A program made the position numbers and the translations under genes. A stretch of 64,000 nucleotides of DNA, from positions 22,322-86,321 of the forward strand of contig MEOG01000103.1 in assembly GCA_001769125.1 (NCBI GenBank), written 5' to 3'. Of the stretch, positions 3,448 to 46,466 are shown piece by piece. The first letter of the stretch is position 1; each line of letters begins with the position of its first letter. The notes under the pieces are model-generated. The model ran no database searches, had not been told where the DNA came from, and worked only from the letters and a program-made list of their open reading frames with translations. The stretch comes from Bacteroidetes bacterium GWF2_35_48. GTDB lineage: Bacteria; Bacteroidota; Bacteroidia; Bacteroidales; GWF2-35-48.

Positions 3448-4301
3448 TTTTGAATTTTGGCGGAAAACTCGTGCCTCAAGCCTTTTGCTTCTGACAAATA
3501 AACTTTTATTGAACCTACAAGAATTCCTGCTTCTATTAGAATTGGAATTTTATTATAGTCATCGGTTACCCATACAGAAAGCTCTTCTCCTCCCTGAAAA
3601 ATTGTACCGGAAACAAGCAGTGCGCTGAATTTTACACAACGATATTTTTGTTTGTTGCGGTCGGCTATTATTTCCTTTCCAAGATAACGAACATAAAGAT
3701 TGTGAACCTTATTATCAATGACCATTTGAATGGGAATTTTATCATTCACATTTGAATTTGAAAAATCAATATTCCGGCAGTAGTAAATAGCTGAAAGCAC
3801 ATCAAACACACATCCTGAAAGAGGCAGTGTATCTTTTTTCGGTTTAACTTTTGAGTTCTCAATAAAGGTATATATTTTTTTATTTTCGGAATCAAAATCA
3901 TAAGCTTCATTCACAAAATAACTTCCCTCAATTGCTTTTCTTTCACATCTCAAAGGTTTAAGTGAAACCGTATCAAGATACGAGATATATCGTTCCCTTA
4001 CTTTGAAAAACCAATCGTGCGAAGGGAGGCTCGTTCCATAACTATCGAATTTATAAACAGGCTTATTTTTATATACCGAATTTTTAATTTCGAAACTCGC
4101 TTTTCCCGCATCAACCCAAATAAAAGCCATGTTATAGTAAATTAAAAAACTTAGTTTTTCTCCTGTTTTAAAAGCCTTATTTTCTTTAAAACATTGCGCT
4201 GTGACAGAGCTTTGAGCAGAAAAGAAAACAAGAATTAAAAGAAACCCGGAAACCGAGAAAAAATGCAAAGCTTTTCTTTTGAAAAAAAAACGTATATCCA
4301 T
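3444..4301 (-). CDS. DUF3108-domain secreted protein
   Basis: A 285-residue protein with a positively charged N-terminus, a hydrophobic segment at about 13-35 and SVTAQC-type cleavage, so it is exported. The body carries the DUF3108 pattern (GEKLSFLIYYNMAFIWVDAGKASFEI, then a C-terminal VWVTDDYNKIPILIEAGI strand pair followed by a short basic tail). Such proteins are predicted periplasmic lipocalin/LolA-like beta structures of unknown function. Its ATG overlaps the stop of the upstream thiamine-binding gene by one base (TGATG), indicating translational coupling. Confidence 0.85.
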   Translation of the reverse strand: MDIRFFFKRKALHFFSVSGFLLILVFFSAQSSVTAQCFKENKAFKTGEKLSFLIYYNMAFIWVDAGKASFEIKNSVYKNKPVYKFDSYGTSLPSHDWFFKVRERYISYLDTVSLKPLRCERKAIEGSYFVNEAYDFDSENKKIYTFIENSKVKPKKDTLPLSGCVFDVLSAIYYCRNIDFSNSNVNDKIPIQMVIDNKVHNLYVRYLGKEIIADRNKQKYRCVKFSALLVSGTIFQGGEELSVWVTDDYNKIPILIEAGILVGSIKVYLSEAKGLRHEFSAKIQK

Positions 4302-4612
4302 CAGGTAGAGACTTTTCCGATTTTACTTTCGATAGATTCTATTTTTTGTTTCATCCTTCCGCTTTTATTTTTTCTTATATCGAAATTCATGCTTGAATAG
4401 ATGCGGTCAGACACAGGCTCCAAAATAGAATACGCTTTCTTTACTATTTCCAAAGCTTCGTCCAGAGTTTCCGTTTCAATAATGGTGCTCATGGGTGTCA
4501 GCTTATAAGATACGCCGCTTTTGCTGATCATTTCTATAACTTTGCTTACGTGCTCGCTAACGCTTGGTCCTTTATCTGTGGGAAACATTGCGAAATTCAT
4601 TAATATAGACAT
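4301..4612 (-). CDS. MTH1187-family thiamine-binding protein (UPF0045)
   Basis: A 103-residue cytoplasmic protein of the UPF0045/DUF77 family (ferredoxin-like fold). It shows the typical N-terminus (NFAMFPTDKGPSVSEHV), the YKLTPMSTIIETE strand and the SMNFDIRKNKSGRM C-terminal segment. Family members form oligomers that bind thiamine or its pyrimidine. It is the first gene of a coupled pair with the DUF3108 gene (TGATG overlap). The pairing does not by itself explain either function. Confidence 0.88.
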   Translation of the reverse strand: MSILMNFAMFPTDKGPSVSEHVSKVIEMISKSGVSYKLTPMSTIIETETLDEALEIVKKAYSILEPVSDRIYSSMNFDIRKNKSGRMKQKIESIESKIGKVST

Positions 4613-4629: not shown

Positions 4630-4767
4630 TATTCAATTGTTTGTTCGATGGATGTTCAATTGTTGGTTCGATAGATGTTCAATTGTTGATTCAATAGATA
4701 TTCAATTGTTTGTTCGATAGATATTCAATTGTTGACTCGAAGGGTGTTCAATTGTTTGTTCGATATT
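4630..4767. repeat. Six 23-bp tandem repeats
   Basis: Six consecutive 23-bp units start at 4630, 4653, 4676, 4699, 4722 and 4745, each beginning T[AG]TTCAATTGTT and ending near TTCGATAGA with scattered differences. There are no spacers, so this is not a CRISPR. The array ends 3 bp before the stop codon of the four-helix-bundle gene. The same core words (GATGTTCAAT) recur on the other side of that gene. Confidence 0.9.
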
Positions 4768-4770
4768 TTT

Positions 4771-5130
4771 TTATTTGATATTTCTACTGATAACTTTAAT
4801 GTAATTATTTAATTTTACACCAATATTATTTATTTCAGAAACAATTGTAAGGTATTCTTCTTTTATTATTAAATTTCTATTGTAAGCCTTGGTTAGCCAT
4901 GTTTTTGTTTCTGAAAGAGAACCTCTGGAATAAAATAGAAAATTTTTTGTGTCTTTCGAATGAAATCGGCCATAACCCTCGCTAATATTTGCAGCAACAG
5001 AATCAGCAGATCTGATAACTTGCTTTCCAATCGTATCAATAGCTAAGTAATTCCAATTAATAACAATACTCCATACTTTCTCTCCAAGAACCATAGAAAG
5101 ATTGTAAATCTCTAAATCTTCAAGTTTCAT
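4771..5130 (-). CDS. Four-helix-bundle protein (23S rRNA intervening-sequence protein family)
   Basis: A 119-residue all-helical protein matching the four-helix-bundle family first described as the 23S rRNA intervening-sequence protein and related to the Avd accessory proteins of diversity-generating retroelements. Diagnostic parts are the LEIYNLS start, VIRSADSVAANISEGYGR in the middle and the FLFYSRGSLSETKTWL helix. Family members form pentameric barrels. The ones encoded as free genes in Bacteroidota have no settled function. No reverse transcriptase or variable repeat is nearby. The gene is bracketed by A/T-rich tandem repeats on both sides, unlike its neighbours. Confidence 0.92.
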   Translation of the reverse strand: MKLEDLEIYNLSMVLGEKVWSIVINWNYLAIDTIGKQVIRSADSVAANISEGYGRFHSKDTKNFLFYSRGSLSETKTWLTKAYNRNLIIKEEYLTIVSEINNIGVKLNNYIKVISRNIK

Positions 5131-5166
5131 AGTTTTAAATTTTAATTATATTTTCAATATATACCT

Positions 5167-5333
5167 ATTGTATTCCTATTTTGATGTTCAATAGTGCAAC
5201 AATAGATGTTCGATAGATGTTCAATAGTGCTACGTAGATGTTCAATTGAGCAACGATAGATGTACAATAGGTGTTCAATTGTTGATTCGGTAGATGTACA
5301 ATTGTATTCCTATTGTATTCCTATTGTATTCCT
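5167..5333. repeat. Irregular tandem repeats upstream of the four-helix gene
   Basis: This is a patchwork of GATGTTCAAT/GATGTACAAT words spaced 11-23 bp apart (5183-5299), followed by three perfect 11-bp units ATTGTATTCCT (5301-5311, 5312-5322, 5323-5333). A single ATTGTATTCCT also occurs at 5167-5177. The last unit runs into the stop codon (5332-5334) of the M16 peptidase gene. Confidence 0.85.
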
Positions 5334-8274
5334 AATAATTAAACACTTCCTCCAACTTCAACTCTTTAACTTTTCCAATTTTTTCTAGCGTTTTAAAGTT
5401 CAATAATTTTTTATTTCCGAGAACAAGAAAAGTGTACTTTTTCCCCTTGACTCTTGTATTAAAAAAATCTTGCAAATGCTCATACCGGGCTATTTTCATT
5501 TTGGAATATACATCTTTGCGGCTGTCGTATAAAATACCACGGTCAAGGTTCGATTGGTAAGTCCAGAATAAATCAGACCCATTAATTCGTTCCGATTCGA
5601 TACGTTTCATAATTGATTCAACAGCCGTATCAAACGATTTATCGGAGCGGGGCATTTCATTCATAAGCCCAAGCATGGCATCAGTAGCAATAGCAAGCTT
5701 GTCGGCCTGAGTAGCAACAAAGCCTATTGTATAATTCGATTTCCCAAGACGATCGGGCATATCGTAATATCCGTAAGCAGAGTAAGCCAGACCACGCGCC
5801 TCACGTATTTCCTGAAAAACAATAGAACTCATATTTCCGCCATAATATTCATTGAAAAGTTCCGCCACAGGAATTATTTCTTTTGTAAAAGGAACATCTT
5901 TTGTCATGATAATAATGTTTGCCTGCACCATATCATAATCAACAAAAAGAACCTGATTTTCTTTTGTATCTGCTTCTGCAAAAGCAGTAGATTCCGGATA
6001 ATCTATAAGCGATTTCAAAGGTTTATGATATTTTTCAAGAATCCCTTTTACATTATCTGAAGGATCTTGCCCGTAATAAAAAATTCTGTGCTTGTAATTA
6101 AAAACATCTTTTACAAGATTTGTCAGCATATTTGGCTTTATTTCCTTTAATTCTTTTTCAGATAAAATATTTGTGAAAGGAGAGCTTGCCCCGAATTTTC
6201 CATAATGATACATGGCATTCCAGAGAATTGCATCTTTGTCAAGCTTGCTGTCTGCTCTTTCTTTTAAAATTCCTGCCACATAATCATCATATACTTTTTG
6301 GTCGGGCTTAAGATTCATAATTATGTGCTCAAGCAGCTCTGCGCCTTTCTCAAACGATTTTTTTAATCCGGACAAAGAAATATACGTGCGTTCGTTAGAA
6401 GCAAAAGCATTCATTTTTAAACCGTGTCTGAACAGTTCTTTCTGCAGATCTTCGGCAGAATATTTTATAGTACCGAGATATGTAATCATATTAAATGCAA
6501 GCGGAAGTTTCGTATTATGATTTTTGCCCATATCAAAAACATAATACAAAGTAAACAATTCATTTTCTTCGTTTTTAATATAATTCAGCTCTATTCCGCT
6601 TTCAAGTTTTGTTGCCTGAATTTCTCTTTCAAAATCCGGAAAAACAGGCGTAATGCGATCGGATTTTTTATTTTCAAATTCTCTCATATATGAAGAACTT
6701 GCTTCGCGGTTAATTGCAACAGGAGTAATGTGAGGTTTGTCAACCTTTACCACATTCGTGTCTTTTCCGACTTTTTTATAAACTGTTATATAATTTTTAC
6801 CATAGCTCTTTTGCGCAAAATCAACAATATCTTTTTTGGTTATTGTACTCAAATCATCAAGAAATTTCACATAATCTTTCCAGTCTGCATCGTAAGAAAA
6901 AGCTTTCACGTAATCATGCGCTCTCCAGTTTGATTCCTGACTTTTTATTTTTTTTAATTTTAAATTATTGATAACAGCTTCCAGCATCCAGTCGTCAAAT
7001 TCTCCTTTTTTAATTTTCTCCATTTCTAAAAGAAAAAGGTTTTGCAGTTCCTCGAGAGTTTGCCCCTGCCGCGGTGTTCCGCCAATAATATGCTCGCTGT
7101 AATCGCGATGTGTTGAATAATATGACCATCCACTTAATATTTTTTGTTTCTGTACAAGATTAAGGTCTATCATCCCTGCTTTACCATTTGATAAAAGTTC
7201 GCTGATAATGCTTGCAGTTTTTTTATCCTCAGATTTATCTCCTTTTAATCGCCATGCCATAACCATATTTTCAGGATTGGGTCCCAGCACTGTTTTTTCA
7301 ACAGGAGTCGTAATTGCATCTTCAACAGGAGGAACAAAAACAGGAACATCTTTACGTGGCAAAGTACCAAAACTTTTATCAATAATTTTAATGGTTTTTT
7401 CAAAATCAATATCGCCACTCATAGCAATAGCCATATTGTTCGGCACATAATACGTGTTCCAGTAATTATGAATGTTAATCATAGAGGGATTTTTCAGATG
7501 TTCTGCCTTGCCAATAACAGTTTGTGTTCCGTAGGGATGTTTCTTATATAATTCGGCATAAAGCGTTTCCCATAATTTGTTGTTGTCGTCATCCTGCCCC
7601 ATGTTGAACTCTTCGTAAACTGTTTCCAGTTCTGTGTGAAACAAGCGCAAAACAAGAGAACTGAAACGTTCTTTTTCCAATTCTAAATATTTTTCCAATT
7701 CATTGGAAGGAATGTCGTTAATATAAACCGTGCGTTCTTCGCTTGTGTAAGCATTGGTTCCTTTTGCGCCAATTATGGCAGTCATTTTATCGTATTCATT
7801 TGCAATAGCAAATTTTGCAGCAATTGCAGATACACTATCAATTTTTGCGTAAATAATTTTCTTTTTCTTGGGATCTTCTGTTTTGCGGTACTCTTCATAA
7901 AGCGCAGAGATTTTTTCAATCTGAATTTTTTCTTCACCCCAATCGGTAGTGCCAATTTTAGAGCTTCCTTTAAACATCATGTGTTCGAGATAATGCGCAA
8001 GACCTGTTGTTCCCTTTGGATCGTAAGTAGAACCCGCTTTTACAGCAATTAAAACCTGAACCCTTGGTTCTTTTTTATTTTGGGTCATGAATACTTTCAG
8101 CCCGTTTGCAAGTGTGTAGATGCGGGCTTTCAGAGGATCGCCTTTAACGGTTTCATAAGCATACCCGTTATTATCTGTAAGCTTTTCGGTCTGGTATCCT
8201 GAATCAGAATTTTGTTTGCAGGAAATAAAGAAAACAAAGCTTAAAATTTCTGCCAGAAAAATGTATTTTTTCAT
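5332..8274 (-). CDS. M16-family zinc metallopeptidase, lipoprotein
   Basis: A 980-residue two-unit M16 (pitrilysin/insulinase) peptidase. The zinc motif HYLEH is at residues 94-98, with the downstream YEEFNMG glutamate region near 220. The second half (about 520-980) is the inactive partner unit. A signal peptide with lipobox FISC (Cys19) predicts a lipoprotein facing the periplasm. These enzymes degrade peptides of a few kDa in the periplasm. A -7 box (TAGTTTTG, 8302-8309) lies just upstream. The extreme 3' end overlaps an 11-bp tandem repeat, so the last residues may not be ancestral. A second, unlinked M16 gene is at 52190. Confidence 0.93.
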   Translation of the reverse strand: MKKYIFLAEILSFVFFISCKQNSDSGYQTEKLTDNNGYAYETVKGDPLKARIYTLANGLKVFMTQNKKEPRVQVLIAVKAGSTYDPKGTTGLAHYLEHMMFKGSSKIGTTDWGEEKIQIEKISALYEEYRKTEDPKKKKIIYAKIDSVSAIAAKFAIANEYDKMTAIIGAKGTNAYTSEERTVYINDIPSNELEKYLELEKERFSSLVLRLFHTELETVYEEFNMGQDDDNNKLWETLYAELYKKHPYGTQTVIGKAEHLKNPSMINIHNYWNTYYVPNNMAIAMSGDIDFEKTIKIIDKSFGTLPRKDVPVFVPPVEDAITTPVEKTVLGPNPENMVMAWRLKGDKSEDKKTASIISELLSNGKAGMIDLNLVQKQKILSGWSYYSTHRDYSEHIIGGTPRQGQTLEELQNLFLLEMEKIKKGEFDDWMLEAVINNLKLKKIKSQESNWRAHDYVKAFSYDADWKDYVKFLDDLSTITKKDIVDFAQKSYGKNYITVYKKVGKDTNVVKVDKPHITPVAINREASSSYMREFENKKSDRITPVFPDFEREIQATKLESGIELNYIKNEENELFTLYYVFDMGKNHNTKLPLAFNMITYLGTIKYSAEDLQKELFRHGLKMNAFASNERTYISLSGLKKSFEKGAELLEHIIMNLKPDQKVYDDYVAGILKERADSKLDKDAILWNAMYHYGKFGASSPFTNILSEKELKEIKPNMLTNLVKDVFNYKHRIFYYGQDPSDNVKGILEKYHKPLKSLIDYPESTAFAEADTKENQVLFVDYDMVQANIIIMTKDVPFTKEIIPVAELFNEYYGGNMSSIVFQEIREARGLAYSAYGYYDMPDRLGKSNYTIGFVATQADKLAIATDAMLGLMNEMPRSDKSFDTAVESIMKRIESERINGSDLFWTYQSNLDRGILYDSRKDVYSKMKIARYEHLQDFFNTRVKGKKYTFLVLGNKKLLNFKTLEKIGKVKELKLEEVFNY

Positions 8275-21539: not shown

Positions 21540-21690
21540 AATATTGGATGTTAACTTTACCACTAAGACACTAAGGGCACTAAGATTCACGAAGGGGGAC
21601 AAGTTGTTGCAGGTTGCAAGTTGCAGGTTGAATATTGGATGTTAACTTTACCACTAAGGTTCACTAAGGTTGAAAAGTTGTTCAGGGTGT
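21540..21690. repeat. Repeat debris in a 396-bp gap
   Basis: The gap 21401-21796 holds no gene. It carries two near-identical 25-bp stretches (TTGAATATTGGATGTTAACT, then TTACCACTAAG) starting about 21538 and 21628. It also has CACTAAG words of about 7-9 bp period (21562-21590, 21650-21672) and three heptamers GCAGGTT, GCAAGTT, GCAGGTT (21609-21629). No promoter consensus is convincing before the PAP2 gene. Confidence 0.75.
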
Positions 21691-21796: not shown

Positions 21797-22453
21797 ATGT
21801 CTGATATTCTGAAAAAAAACATTACTTTTTATATCCCTTACCTCCTCTTCTTAGTTGCGGGTCTGAGCATTTTAACTATATTTTCCAAACCGGAAATTCA
21901 TATTGCAGTAAATCAATTTCATTCTCCTTTTTTTGATCGTTTTTTCTACTACCTAACTTATTTAGGAGATGGAATCGTATCTTTATCCCTGATAGGTTTA
22001 ATGCTTTTTGTCCGGTTTCGCTATTTTTTTTATATGGCAGTAGGAACTCTTCTTGCGCTTGCTGTTGTTTCATTATTAAAAAATGTAATTTTTGAAGGAG
22101 CGTTGCGACCCTACAGTTATTTTAAATGGATTTACCCTTATGGTTTGCATCTGATAGAAGGAGTTGATTACAATGGATTCAACAGTTTCCCGTCCGGCCA
22201 TACCATGACTGCATTTTGTTCGTTTTTAAGTCTGGTATTTCTTGTAAAAAACAATATTGTAAAATTTTTATTTTTTATTATCGCACTGCTGATTAGCTTT
22301 TCAAGAGTATATTTGTCACAACATTTTTTTTTGGATATTGTTTTCGGTTCTTTTATTGCCGTTATTTTTATGACGTTCAGTTATTATCTTTTTAAGAAGC
22401 CGCAAAACAGCTGGATGGATAAATCGCTTATTACAATTTTCAAACAAAAATAA
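21797..22453 (+). CDS. PAP2-family membrane phosphatase
   Basis: A 218-residue protein with five or six membrane helices and the lipid-phosphatase triad: a degenerate KX6RP-like motif around KNVIFEGALRPYSYF (about 96-110), PSGHTMTAFC (about 133-142) and SRVYLSQHFFLDIVFGS (about 169-185). It dephosphorylates lipid or polyprenyl pyrophosphates or lipid A at the inner membrane. It is followed after 6 bp by a GT39-type transferase, so the pair probably works on lipid-linked sugars or lipid A. Confidence 0.92.
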   Translation: MSDILKKNITFYIPYLLFLVAGLSILTIFSKPEIHIAVNQFHSPFFDRFFYYLTYLGDGIVSLSLIGLMLFVRFRYFFYMAVGTLLALAVVSLLKNVIFEGALRPYSYFKWIYPYGLHLIEGVDYNGFNSFPSGHTMTAFCSFLSLVFLVKNNIVKFLFFIIALLISFSRVYLSQHFFLDIVFGSFIAVIFMTFSYYLFKKPQNSWMDKSLITIFKQK

Positions 22454-38548: not shown

Positions 38549-38591
38549 TAGAATTTTAACTTAGGTTATGTATAGTGTTTTTATATTAATC

Positions 38592-38663
38592 AGTCTGCAG
38601 TCTACAGTCTGCAGTCTGTCTGACTGCCGACTGCCGACTCTCTGACTGCCGACTGCCGACTAT
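38592..38663. repeat. Heptamer array (AGTCTGC and CGACTGC units)
   Basis: AGTCTGC, AGTCTAC, AGTCTGC, AGTCTGT (38592-38619), then TGACTGC, CGACTGC, CGACTCT, CTGACTGC (8 bp), CGACTGC, CGACTAT (38621-38663). It occupies the gap between the GH16-like gene and purE. Confidence 0.85.
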
Positions 38664-38705
38664 TTTGACTTCCTACTTCCTCAACAATTTGCGCAACAAA
38701 ATTTT

Positions 38706-39218
38706 TCAATTCGTTTTGAACTCAAATTTAATTTTAGAAAATTCTTCGTTCGCTTCAATAATTTTCTTTTTCAGACCATTTTTAAATTCTGCTACTTTTT
38801 TTGCCATTTCTTCATCTCCTGTAGCAATAATTTGCGCTGCAAGAATCGCTGCATTTTGCGCAGCATCAAGTCCTACTGTTGCAACAGGAATTCCGGGAGG
38901 CATTTGTAATATTGACAACACAGAATCCCATCCATCCAAAGAAATAGAAGAACGACAGGGAACACCAATAACAGGAAGACTTGTGAAAGCAGAAACAACA
39001 CCGGGCAGATGCGCCGCGCCACCAGCTCCGGCAATTATTACCTTAATCCCTCTTTTCTGAGCCCCCGAAGCAAATTCTTCTACTTTTTCAGGTGTTCTGT
39101 GCGCAGAAAGAGCATTTACCTCAAACGGTATTTGAAAATCATTAAGTTGTTTTGCTGCTTTTTCCATTACAGGCCAGTCAGATGTGCTGCCCATTATTAT
39201 ACTTACTTTTGGATTCAT
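38706..39218 (-). CDS. purE: N5-carboxyaminoimidazole ribonucleotide mutase
   Basis: A 170-residue class I PurE that converts N5-CAIR to CAIR in purine synthesis. Motifs are MGSTSDWPVMEKAA near 9-22, NALSAHRTPEKVEEFA near 38-53 (catalytic His) and AGAGGAAHLPGV near 66-77. It forms octamers. purK is not adjacent. The gene is flanked on both sides by heptamer arrays. Confidence 0.96.
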   Translation of the reverse strand: MNPKVSIIMGSTSDWPVMEKAAKQLNDFQIPFEVNALSAHRTPEKVEEFASGAQKRGIKVIIAGAGGAAHLPGVVSAFTSLPVIGVPCRSSISLDGWDSVLSILQMPPGIPVATVGLDAAQNAAILAAQIIATGDEEMAKKVAEFKNGLKKKIIEANEEFSKIKFEFKTN

Positions 39219-39562
39219 AAGGTATGTTATATAAAATTAATTTATTAAATTGTGTAATGCAAAATGTTTTTCATCAATACTTCCGAAGTCGGAAGTCCGA
39301 AGCTATAAGCTGTTTTGCTCTTACATTTAAATTTCATTGCTTAGTTGTATTATTTCACATTCAGTCTACAGTCTACAGTCTACAGTCTACAGTCTACAGT
39401 CTACAGTCCTCAGTCCTCAGTCCTCAGTCCTCAGTCCTCAGTCCTCAGTCTACCTTACTGCCGACTCTTTCGACTGCCGACTGCTGACTATTTTGATTGC
39501 CGACTTTACTCTTGTTTCCGTCATAAACTTCATTTTACCCTATTTGCATAACACCAGTTATT
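39219..39562. repeat. Long heptamer array and remnants upstream of purE
   Basis: A 91-bp perfect array (39363-39453) consists of six AGTCTAC, then six AGTCCTC, then one AGTCTAC. CGACTCT/CGACTGC words continue to about 39505. GAAGTCGGAAGTCCGAAG-type words lie at 39285-39301. Open frames across it are only repeat translations. I see no gene. Confidence 0.88.
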
Positions 39563-45648: not shown

Positions 45649-45766
45649 CCTTTTTATTATTTATTTATAATTATTTATTTTTTTGCCGCTAAGCCGCTAA
45701 GGCTTTAAGTTTATTTTCATTTAGATTGTTAACTTTTGTTTCTTTGAGTCTTTGTGGCTGTTTAAT

Positions 45767-46047
45767 TTGCCGCTAAGGCGCTAAAACTCTAAGTGTATTT
45801 TCTTTGCGTCTTTGAGTCTTTGTGGCTGTTTAATTTGCCGCTAAGGCGCTAAAACTCTAAGTGTTTTTTCTTTGCGTCTTTGAGTCTTTGTGGCTGTTTA
45901 ATTTGCCGCTAAGGCGCTAAAACTCTAAGTGTTTTTTCTTTGCGTCTTTGAGCCTTTGTGGCTGTTAATTTGCCGCTTAGAATCTAAATTTAATTGATAT
46001 TCTTTTTCTTTGCGTCTTTGAGTCTTTGTGGCTGTTTAATTTGCTGC
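45767..46047. repeat. Four imperfect 68-bp tandem repeats
   Basis: Units starting TTGCCGCTAAGGCGCTAAAA occur at 45767, 45835 and 45903, with degenerate units at 45970 and 46041 (spacings 68, 68, 67, 71). Each contains CTTTGCGTCTTTGAGTC and TTTGTGGCTGTT. The rest of the gap 45649-46065 has related words (GCCGCTAAGCCGCTAAGG near 45685) and no gene. TTTGCGTCTTTGCGTC also occurs on the far side of the GxxExxY gene (46561). Confidence 0.9.
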
Positions 46048-46065: not shown

Positions 46066-46466
46066 CTAAAAAATAAATCTTCGTATGCCTTGTTTTATAA
46101 AGGGGACATTAAAATTTATTAAATAACCTAAATGTTTTTTTGTTAGTTTCAAATGACTTAAAATTTGTGCCTCCCATACAGGATTAACCAAATCTACTGC
46201 TTTTAATTCACAAATAACAAGATTATTTACAATAACATCTAGTCTGAAACCCTCGTTAAAACCAGACCATCAAAAATAATTGGAATATCTATTTGCCTTT
46301 TTGCATCAAATCCTTTTTGGGTTAGAACGTGGCAAAAACAAACTTCGTAAACTTTTTCAAGCAAACCAGGTCCTAATTCCTTATGGACGATATATGCAGC
46401 ATCAACAATTGCTTTTCCAATTTTTTCTTCTTCATCACTTAATATTATATGTTTCTTTTCTTGCAT
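46066..46466 (-). pseudogene. GxxExxY-family protein gene, frameshifted
   Basis: The N-terminal part (MQEKKHIILSDEEEKIGKAI, then HKELGPGLLEKVYEVCF) carries the naming motif G-LLE-KV-Y. At about 46250 the frame breaks (FDGLVL-TRVSD-stop). One base inserted into the run GGTTTTAACG restores FNEGFRLDVIVNNLVICELK, followed by AVDLVNPVWEAQILSHLKL and KQGIRRFIF, ending at TAG 46066-46068. The D...ELK spacing suits a PD-(D/E)XK-like nuclease fold, as proposed for the family. This is probably a recent loss, or a homopolymer sequencing error. Confidence 0.85.

Follow-up and report, generated by a model that had tools for sequence, protein, structure and literature searches.

A small gene in the 64,000-nt stretch analyzed here (contig MEOG01000103.1 of Bacteroidetes bacterium GWF2_35_48, positions 22,322 to 86,321; "the window" from here on, with positions counted from its first letter), which codes for a four-helix-bundle (4HB) protein and is bracketed by short tandem repeats, is read, with a probability of roughly 0.6, as one copy of a transposon-like element family, in which a 4HB gene lies between two short-tandem-repeat arms that are inverted as a rule. 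What is demonstrated is that sites occur both occupied and empty, that geneless copies are dispersed, that arms are inverted across the family, that protein and repeat are inherited together across sites and phyla, and that the cognate repeat is in excess in the genome holding the gene. A repeat-gene-repeat cassette tied to nucleic-acid insertion or repeat turnover had been suggested in an earlier note on this DNA, and paralogues, empty sites and repeat-only copies support that suggestion in outline. The locus is laid out as follows (loci and genomes compared carry the prefixes L and G, respectively):

4301..4612, minus strand: downstream host gene, Thiamine_BP (MTH1187-type), from open reading frame (ORF) and Pfam
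4630..4767, no strand: arm 3' of the gene, of about six units of 23 bp (TTCAATTGTTGGTTCGATAGATG)
4771..5130, minus strand: 4HB (PF05635/TIGR02436) gene, an ORF of 119 aa with profile matches, the sole gene of the element
5164..5179, no strand: short arm 5' of the gene, on the opposite strand, CCTATTGTATTCCTAT, with the words of the right arm of geneless copies
5183..5299, no strand: left arm (GATGTTCAATAG words) of a second unit, which is geneless and in tandem; the exact junction, 5175-5211, is common to L291
5301..5334, no strand: right arm of that geneless unit, with ATTGTATTCCT three times, running into the M16 stop codon
5332..8274, minus strand: upstream host gene, M16 peptidase, with its stop codon at 5332-5334; Thiamine_BP is directly next to it in the congener G001

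That the gene at 4771-5130 is flanked by repeats, as the earlier note had it, is confirmed by the ORF call, by profile matches of the protein (PF05635 at 2e-24 in a Pfam profile search; TIGR02436 at 3.4e-25, 88.4 bits) and by Tandem Repeats Finder, in which 4632-4765 is made up of a 23-bp unit present 5.8 times, 5183-5304 is irregularly repetitive, and ATTGTATTCCT is present 3.1 times at 5301-5334. The word GATGTTCAAT occurs five times in the window (0.17 expected), always within the two flanking blocks, and a longer consensus (at most three mismatches) gives six window matches, with none expected, all within the same blocks; the claim that the repeat words are seen nowhere else in the window thus stands for GATGTTCAAT, but falls for TTCGATAGA, one of the two repeat words, which is also found at 4328-4336. 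Likewise, the irregular same-word repeats noted at 5183-5299 are real, but are no single array: on the gene's 5' side there is the short opposite-strand arm, followed by a complete geneless two-arm unit (5183-5334), the end of which overlaps the stop codon of the upstream gene, so that the 4HB gene has a left arm (4630-4767) on one side and a short right arm (5164-5179) on the other, a whole geneless unit following in tandem. An identical junction of two such units is present in L291 and, judged by eye, a nearly identical one in L268. At the window junction between the host genes, TTTAATTATTA is seen near both ends, a possible target-site duplication by eye, which is AT-rich and unproven.

All three genes (M16, 4HB and Thiamine_BP) are on the minus strand, and the insert between the outer two is best read, on comparison of sequences, as an addition to a pre-existing operon, since vacant counterparts exist both here and at a second junction, as the check proposed in the earlier note had called for. 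The congener G001 keeps the order M16 - Thiamine_BP - DUF3108 (amino-acid identities of 65, 75 and 66%) with about 11 nt between the M16 stop and the next start, and neither a 4HB gene nor repeats there; Thiamine_BP was matched in 13 of the 41 genomes searched, and a 4HB gene lies beside it, among the loci compared, in the window's own genome only. The second junction is sufB-sufC, which is occupied in two and empty in three of five genomes of one family, the inserts lying directly after the sufB stop in G038 and G064 (the 4HB frame being disrupted in the latter).

Outside the window, the repeat word (at most three mismatches) has 71 matches in its own genome, with two for the reversed control pattern, and a single match, with three mismatches, in G001. 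The 31 further repeat places of the own genome, from which a few three-mismatch matches resembling chance had been excluded, are all intergenic, and none is at any of the genome's six 4HB genes. A typical geneless unit consists of (CAATAGATGTT)n followed, on the opposite strand, by (AATTCCTATTG)n, with a central sequence such as GTACAATTGTA between the two. Among the 24 of these 31 loci in which arm structure was assessed, 20 are two-armed (at least two right-arm words past the last left-arm word) and so have terminal inverted repeats as miniature inverted-repeat transposable elements (MITEs) do, right-arm words averaging 4.3 per gap, vs. 0.09 after shuffling. Both of the geneless arrays whose two neighbours were found in the G001 DNA compared correspond to a gap without the repeat there. 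As several contigs of the own genome start or stop in or near arrays of this family (L258, L266, L267 and L269), the copy count is probably a lower bound.

The association is not peculiar to this locus. Short tandem repeats lie no more than a few hundred bases from five of the six 4HB genes of the own genome, with different words each, and in a set of 128 4HB genes from 120 loci of many phyla arrays flank 65 genes on the 5' side, 70 on the 3' side, 47 on both and 88 on at least one, which agrees with what the earlier note had expected of the paralogues. Genes were called by a crude longest-ORF rule (two of the 120 loci, L073 and L104, are without a 4HB ORF), and arrays are present in 112 of 195 gaps beside 4HB genes (two of them doubled, as the window is included alongside L001) vs. 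26 of the 214 gaps that lie elsewhere in these loci; among gaps 30-100 nt long, 50/102 and 2/70, respectively, hold them. As 80 of the first 120 loci entered the set for their similarity to the window protein and the sample is therefore non-random, the fairer comparison is a single fixed draw of 60 genomes from the order, with the best match taken per genome: PF05635 was present in 42 of them, arrays were seen at 23/30 4HB genes vs. 4/30 genes of the control SmpB, and an inverted flank score of at least 30 was reached by 16/30 and 0/30, respectively. No match was found in 50,697 phage records, and a phage link was rejected.

Some other genes of the order are bracketed by inverted or direct repeats of their own, unlike SmpB: flanking arrays were found at 8/28 GxxExxY genes (12 inverted; two of 30 loci lacked an ORF) and 8/30 Y1 transposase genes (13 inverted, 15 direct), the repeats being mostly of other kinds (L165-L224 set). 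A broken GxxExxY (PF13366) gene of the window (45741-46044 and 46075-46424) adjoins a 68-bp tandem array. Three 4HB genes with arrays lie in a single operon, presumably of the phenylacetate type, of a Nonlabens bin (L108, 1764-5211).

As to the arms, those 124 of the 128 genes with both flanks of at least 40 nt could be aligned, and the 5' flank matched the reverse complement of its own 3' flank with a median score of 28.5 (15 for swapped partners), exceeding 99% of swapped pairs in 58/124 loci, compared to 10/124 for direct alignment. A gene between inverted copies of a repeat, the arrangement known from the transposases associated with repetitive extragenic palindromes (RAYTs and REPs), is thus seen at the family level, the window having a short right arm only. 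The repeats also follow the protein: flanks are similar in 14 of 40 pairs from different genomes, with no neighbour gene shared, at a protein identity of at least 0.65 vs. 34 of 3053 below 0.25, and for cross-phylum pairs (phylum labels come from record titles, and bins can be wrong) in 6/17 vs. 9/1356. In a slightly larger first set of 7407 pairs, the opposite-strand control stayed at or below 1.1%, and a Mantel r of 0.27 was reached by none of 500 permutations. Repeat and protein therefore co-vary at unrelated sites, as they do for REP/RAYT. Finally, the density of the cognate words in the own genome was more than twice the mean of the other four of five sampled genomes in 14 of 16 families (p = 0.0017), e.g., 40.8 vs. 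4.2 per 100 kb for L001 and 48.6 vs. 0.5 for L302, although the reversed control was high for the second gene of L296; together with the 71 matches vs. one for the window repeat, this parallels the abundance of dispersed REPs with their cognate gene. The words of L004, another 4HB locus of the own genome, gave 10.5 matches per 100 kb there and 0.3 elsewhere, and a GTTGCAG array at 21606-21630 of the window has the same word as the array beside that gene.

Several points weigh against reading the window feature as a copy of such a mobile family. No array was detected at 40 of the 128 4HB genes; the own genomes of L301 and L005 showed no excess of the cognate repeats, and seven of 23 genes had too few repeated words for the density test, which spans five genomes. 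Presence and absence of the window family rest on one genome pair, G001 being the sole other genome of the genus compared. The 93 gene-bearing loci gave no target-site duplication signal (own 10.6, swapped 10.3), and such a duplication was rejected as a general mark. PF05635 is the sole Pfam match of the window protein, which has no known catalytic domain. At the window locus itself the direct alignment (79) exceeds the inverted one (22), an exception to the family rule; the direct appearance of the arms there is due to a geneless copy that follows the gene-bearing unit in tandem, and the cassette of the earlier note is to be amended to one with arms that are usually inverted (the 58/124 above), not direct.

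Among the alternatives, the one that survives best, although unlikely, is that these are ordinary intergenic repeats spread by something else, beside which 4HB genes merely settle or persist. It would account for window arrays that have no 4HB gene, such as those around the AIRC (purE-type) gene (38591-39505), and for GxxExxY genes adjoining repeats too; however, repeat sequence tracks 4HB lineage across phyla and sites, no such enrichment is seen at SmpB or in other gaps, and the congener G001 has neither the gene nor the repeat. The arrays around AIRC (38591-38661 and 39362-39505) are two-armed and inverted, with CAGTCTA / GACTGCC words that recur in L261 and that bracket a 4HB gene in L033 (G028), because of which they look like geneless copies of another such family.

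The orientation of the elements within host operons bears on a second alternative. With respect to co-directional host genes, 93 4HB genes are in sense and three are opposed, and both neighbours are co-directional in 93/112 4HB cases vs. 80/174 ordinary interior genes; the median distance is 3 nt from the upstream stop codon to the beginning of the 5' array (48 loci) and 12 nt from the end of the 3' array to the next start (49 loci). The arms were considered as a source of extra stop or start codons, which was rejected, the 5' arms showing no excess of sense stops (9.25 per 100 vs. 8.98 shuffled). Geneless arrays of the window family, by a hand count, have no orientation preference in co-directional gaps (eight same, eight opposite, one mixed), ten others lying in convergent or divergent gaps and four at contig ends, which suggests, for this one repeat family, that the sense bias of the gene stems from its need for host transcription and not from target choice.

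An intervening sequence (IVS) of mRNA, whose arms would pair in the transcript and be kept for that pairing, RNase III cutting the hairpin out of the polycistronic message, comes second and seems quite unlikely. The 93 to 3 bias towards sense would suit it, as would the predicted duplex energy (-39.5 for own arms vs. -26.9 for swapped ones) and the Coxiella IVS, which is excised by RNase III and has the same protein family and complementary borders (PMC4990558). Selection on an RNA stem, though, would need G-U to be favoured over A-C among arm mismatches, and the counts over 67 loci (111 and 122, respectively) led to its rejection; geneless copies are found in either orientation and also between convergent or divergent genes, and the window's own arms pair weakly.

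Third, and improbable as well, is that the elements are non-autonomous and are moved in trans by resident IS200/RAYT-type enzymes, i.e., Y1 (HUH, RAYT-like) transposases, with the 4HB protein as an accessory. Counts of 4HB and Y1 genes over the 60 genomes do correlate (rho 0.66; partial rho 0.59 after genome size and contig number), and Y1 is found in 33/35 genomes with at least two 4HB genes and 7/18 with none, but a general load of mobile DNA would yield the same, and the correlation may reflect either such a load or a motor in trans. Shared flanking repeats (at least 34) were seen in none of 19 pairs of same-genome Y1 and 4HB loci, so shared ends were rejected, and Y1 was not matched in G049, which has four 4HB genes.

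That a reverse transcriptase acts in trans, with the 4HB protein serving like the Avd of diversity-generating retroelements and the repeats spreading through cDNA, is very improbable and was rejected, and the corresponding side of the earlier note's idea with it: PF05635 does resemble Avd (PMC10053308) and the window protein has a weak match to the Avd model NF033474 (14.8 bits, far below the cut-off of 80), but RVT_1 is unmatched in 14 of the 35 genomes with at least two 4HB genes (drafts may miss genes), G038, with one family at 48.6 words per 100 kb, among them, the partial rho of 4HB count with RVT_1 is 0.13, and no reverse transcriptase is among the Pfam-identified neighbouring genes. In the own genome RVT_1 is matched once, on a contig other than that of the window.

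Returning to the transposon-like element, the mobile unit would be a 4HB gene, apparently promoterless, between two short-tandem-repeat arms, usually inverted, and the window copy sits in sense inside an operon, with the M16 gene on one side and the Thiamine_BP gene on the other, which is why the host operon probably transcribes the 4HB gene. The protein would bind its cognate repeat and act in trans on all copies, the geneless two-armed ones at about 31 intergenic sites being to the autonomous element what MITEs or bacterial interspersed mosaic elements (BIMEs) are to theirs, and gene-bearing copies would persist only at sites read by host transcription. Among solved structures, the chains 2gsc and 2rld are relatives of the window protein by sequence profile matches; the Xanthomonas protein, a ring-shaped homopentamer of four-helix bundles (PMC4990558), is identified as 2gsc (PMC10053308). 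As for the cutting and joining of DNA, our guess would be a host repair/replication enzyme or an HUH-type enzyme recruited by the 4HB ring.

Host junctions of other 4HB inserts, as named by Pfam, include the following:

L005: Cas2-Cas1
L002: SBF transporter - LMWPc protein, in an ars-like cluster
L015: SufB - ABC ATPase
L079: ALAD - aminotransferase
L084: histidinol dehydrogenase - aminotransferase
L110: 3-hydroxyacyl-CoA dehydrogenase - thioesterase

CRISPR-cas operons with 4HB genes and arrays inside them are L005 (1098-3138, cas2-cas1) and L295 (319-3342, cas6-cas4-cas1d), and the order on an Anabaena plasmid is cas6 - array - 4HB - cas4 - cas1d. Genes labelled 23S_rRNA_IVP beside cas4, cas6, cas1 and cas2 have been listed as a CRISPR-Cas-associated function (PMC3936711); L005 and L295, on the other hand, carry arrays and fit insertion into an operon, and insertions of this kind could explain why 4HB genes turn up in surveys of cas-linked genes. 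The 4HB genes in cas and other operons may, in other words, be insertions and not operon partners.

More broadly, we would give about even odds to the proposition that a new class of bacterial mobile elements, without a known transposase and with inverted short-tandem-array arms, has PF05635 proteins as its trans-acting factors, that each lineage recognises and spreads its own repeat, that a large part of the unexplained short-unit intergenic arrays in Bacteroidota, Cyanobacteria and others was seeded by these elements, and that the 23S rRNA IVS is a special case that landed in an rRNA gene. A literature search (without most subscription journals and without preprints) returned no paper recognised as linking PF05635 to tandem repeats, and the family was given as having no known function in a 2016 paper (PMC4990558). 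The present result offers a role for this widespread family and makes the long-known 23S rRNA IVS part of a larger one; the element family may explain the origin of many unexplained bacterial repeats, and, should the 4HB protein prove to be the mover, a new class of element would be at hand. The claim is also a testable one, as it concerns one small protein and one short repeat.

Cyanobacterial short tandemly repeated repetitive (STRR) sequences are a class of short-unit arrays like the TAACTGA heptamers. Of two cyanobacterial plasmid 4HB loci, that of Anabaena sp. 90 has an array and that of Pseudanabaena does not. Arrays of TAACTGA and other heptamers have been described from Beggiatoaceae, Cyanobacteria and Bacteroidetes with the remark that "no mechanism is evident" (PMC4679880), and they resemble the present ones in being short-unit intergenic arrays, often just upstream of start codons, across distant phyla; the difference is that the array family is here tied to a gene, so that PF05635 becomes linked to a repeat class whose spread had been described without a mechanism. 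The terms "four helix bundle", "intervening" and "S23" are missing from the main text of that paper.

With the 23S rRNA IVS the elements share an S23/4HB ORF, complementary borders, the sense orientation in a transcription unit and a sporadic distribution (PMC4990558); they differ in that the insert lies between protein genes (both neighbours of the window gene are such, and not rRNA genes), in that the arms are tandem arrays and in having dispersed geneless copies, while the complementarity of the borders is a DNA-level feature of the family, carries no signal of RNA selection and is weak at the window locus. Avd is likewise a four-helix bundle of the same superfamily (PMC10053308), but the window protein falls far below the Avd cut-off, and no link to RVT_1 genes was seen. 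MITEs and BIMEs are also short geneless inverted copies scattered between genes, whereas 4HB arms are tandem arrays, the gene-bearing loci lack a target-site duplication signal, and no transposase parent is known.

A close resemblance is to the REP/RAYT system, for which inverted flanking repeats, co-evolution of these with the protein and an abundance of dispersed repeats tied to the cognate gene have been described (PMC2817692), all three of which are also found for the 4HB elements. The 4HB repeats, though, are short tandem arrays and not palindromes, the Y1 genes of the same genomes carry repeats other than those of the 4HB genes, and the protein is a four-helix bundle in place of a Y1 HUH transposase; as this defining transposase is absent, the 4HB element works by its architecture like REP/RAYT, or like a MITE family, but is not a member of the REP/RAYT system.
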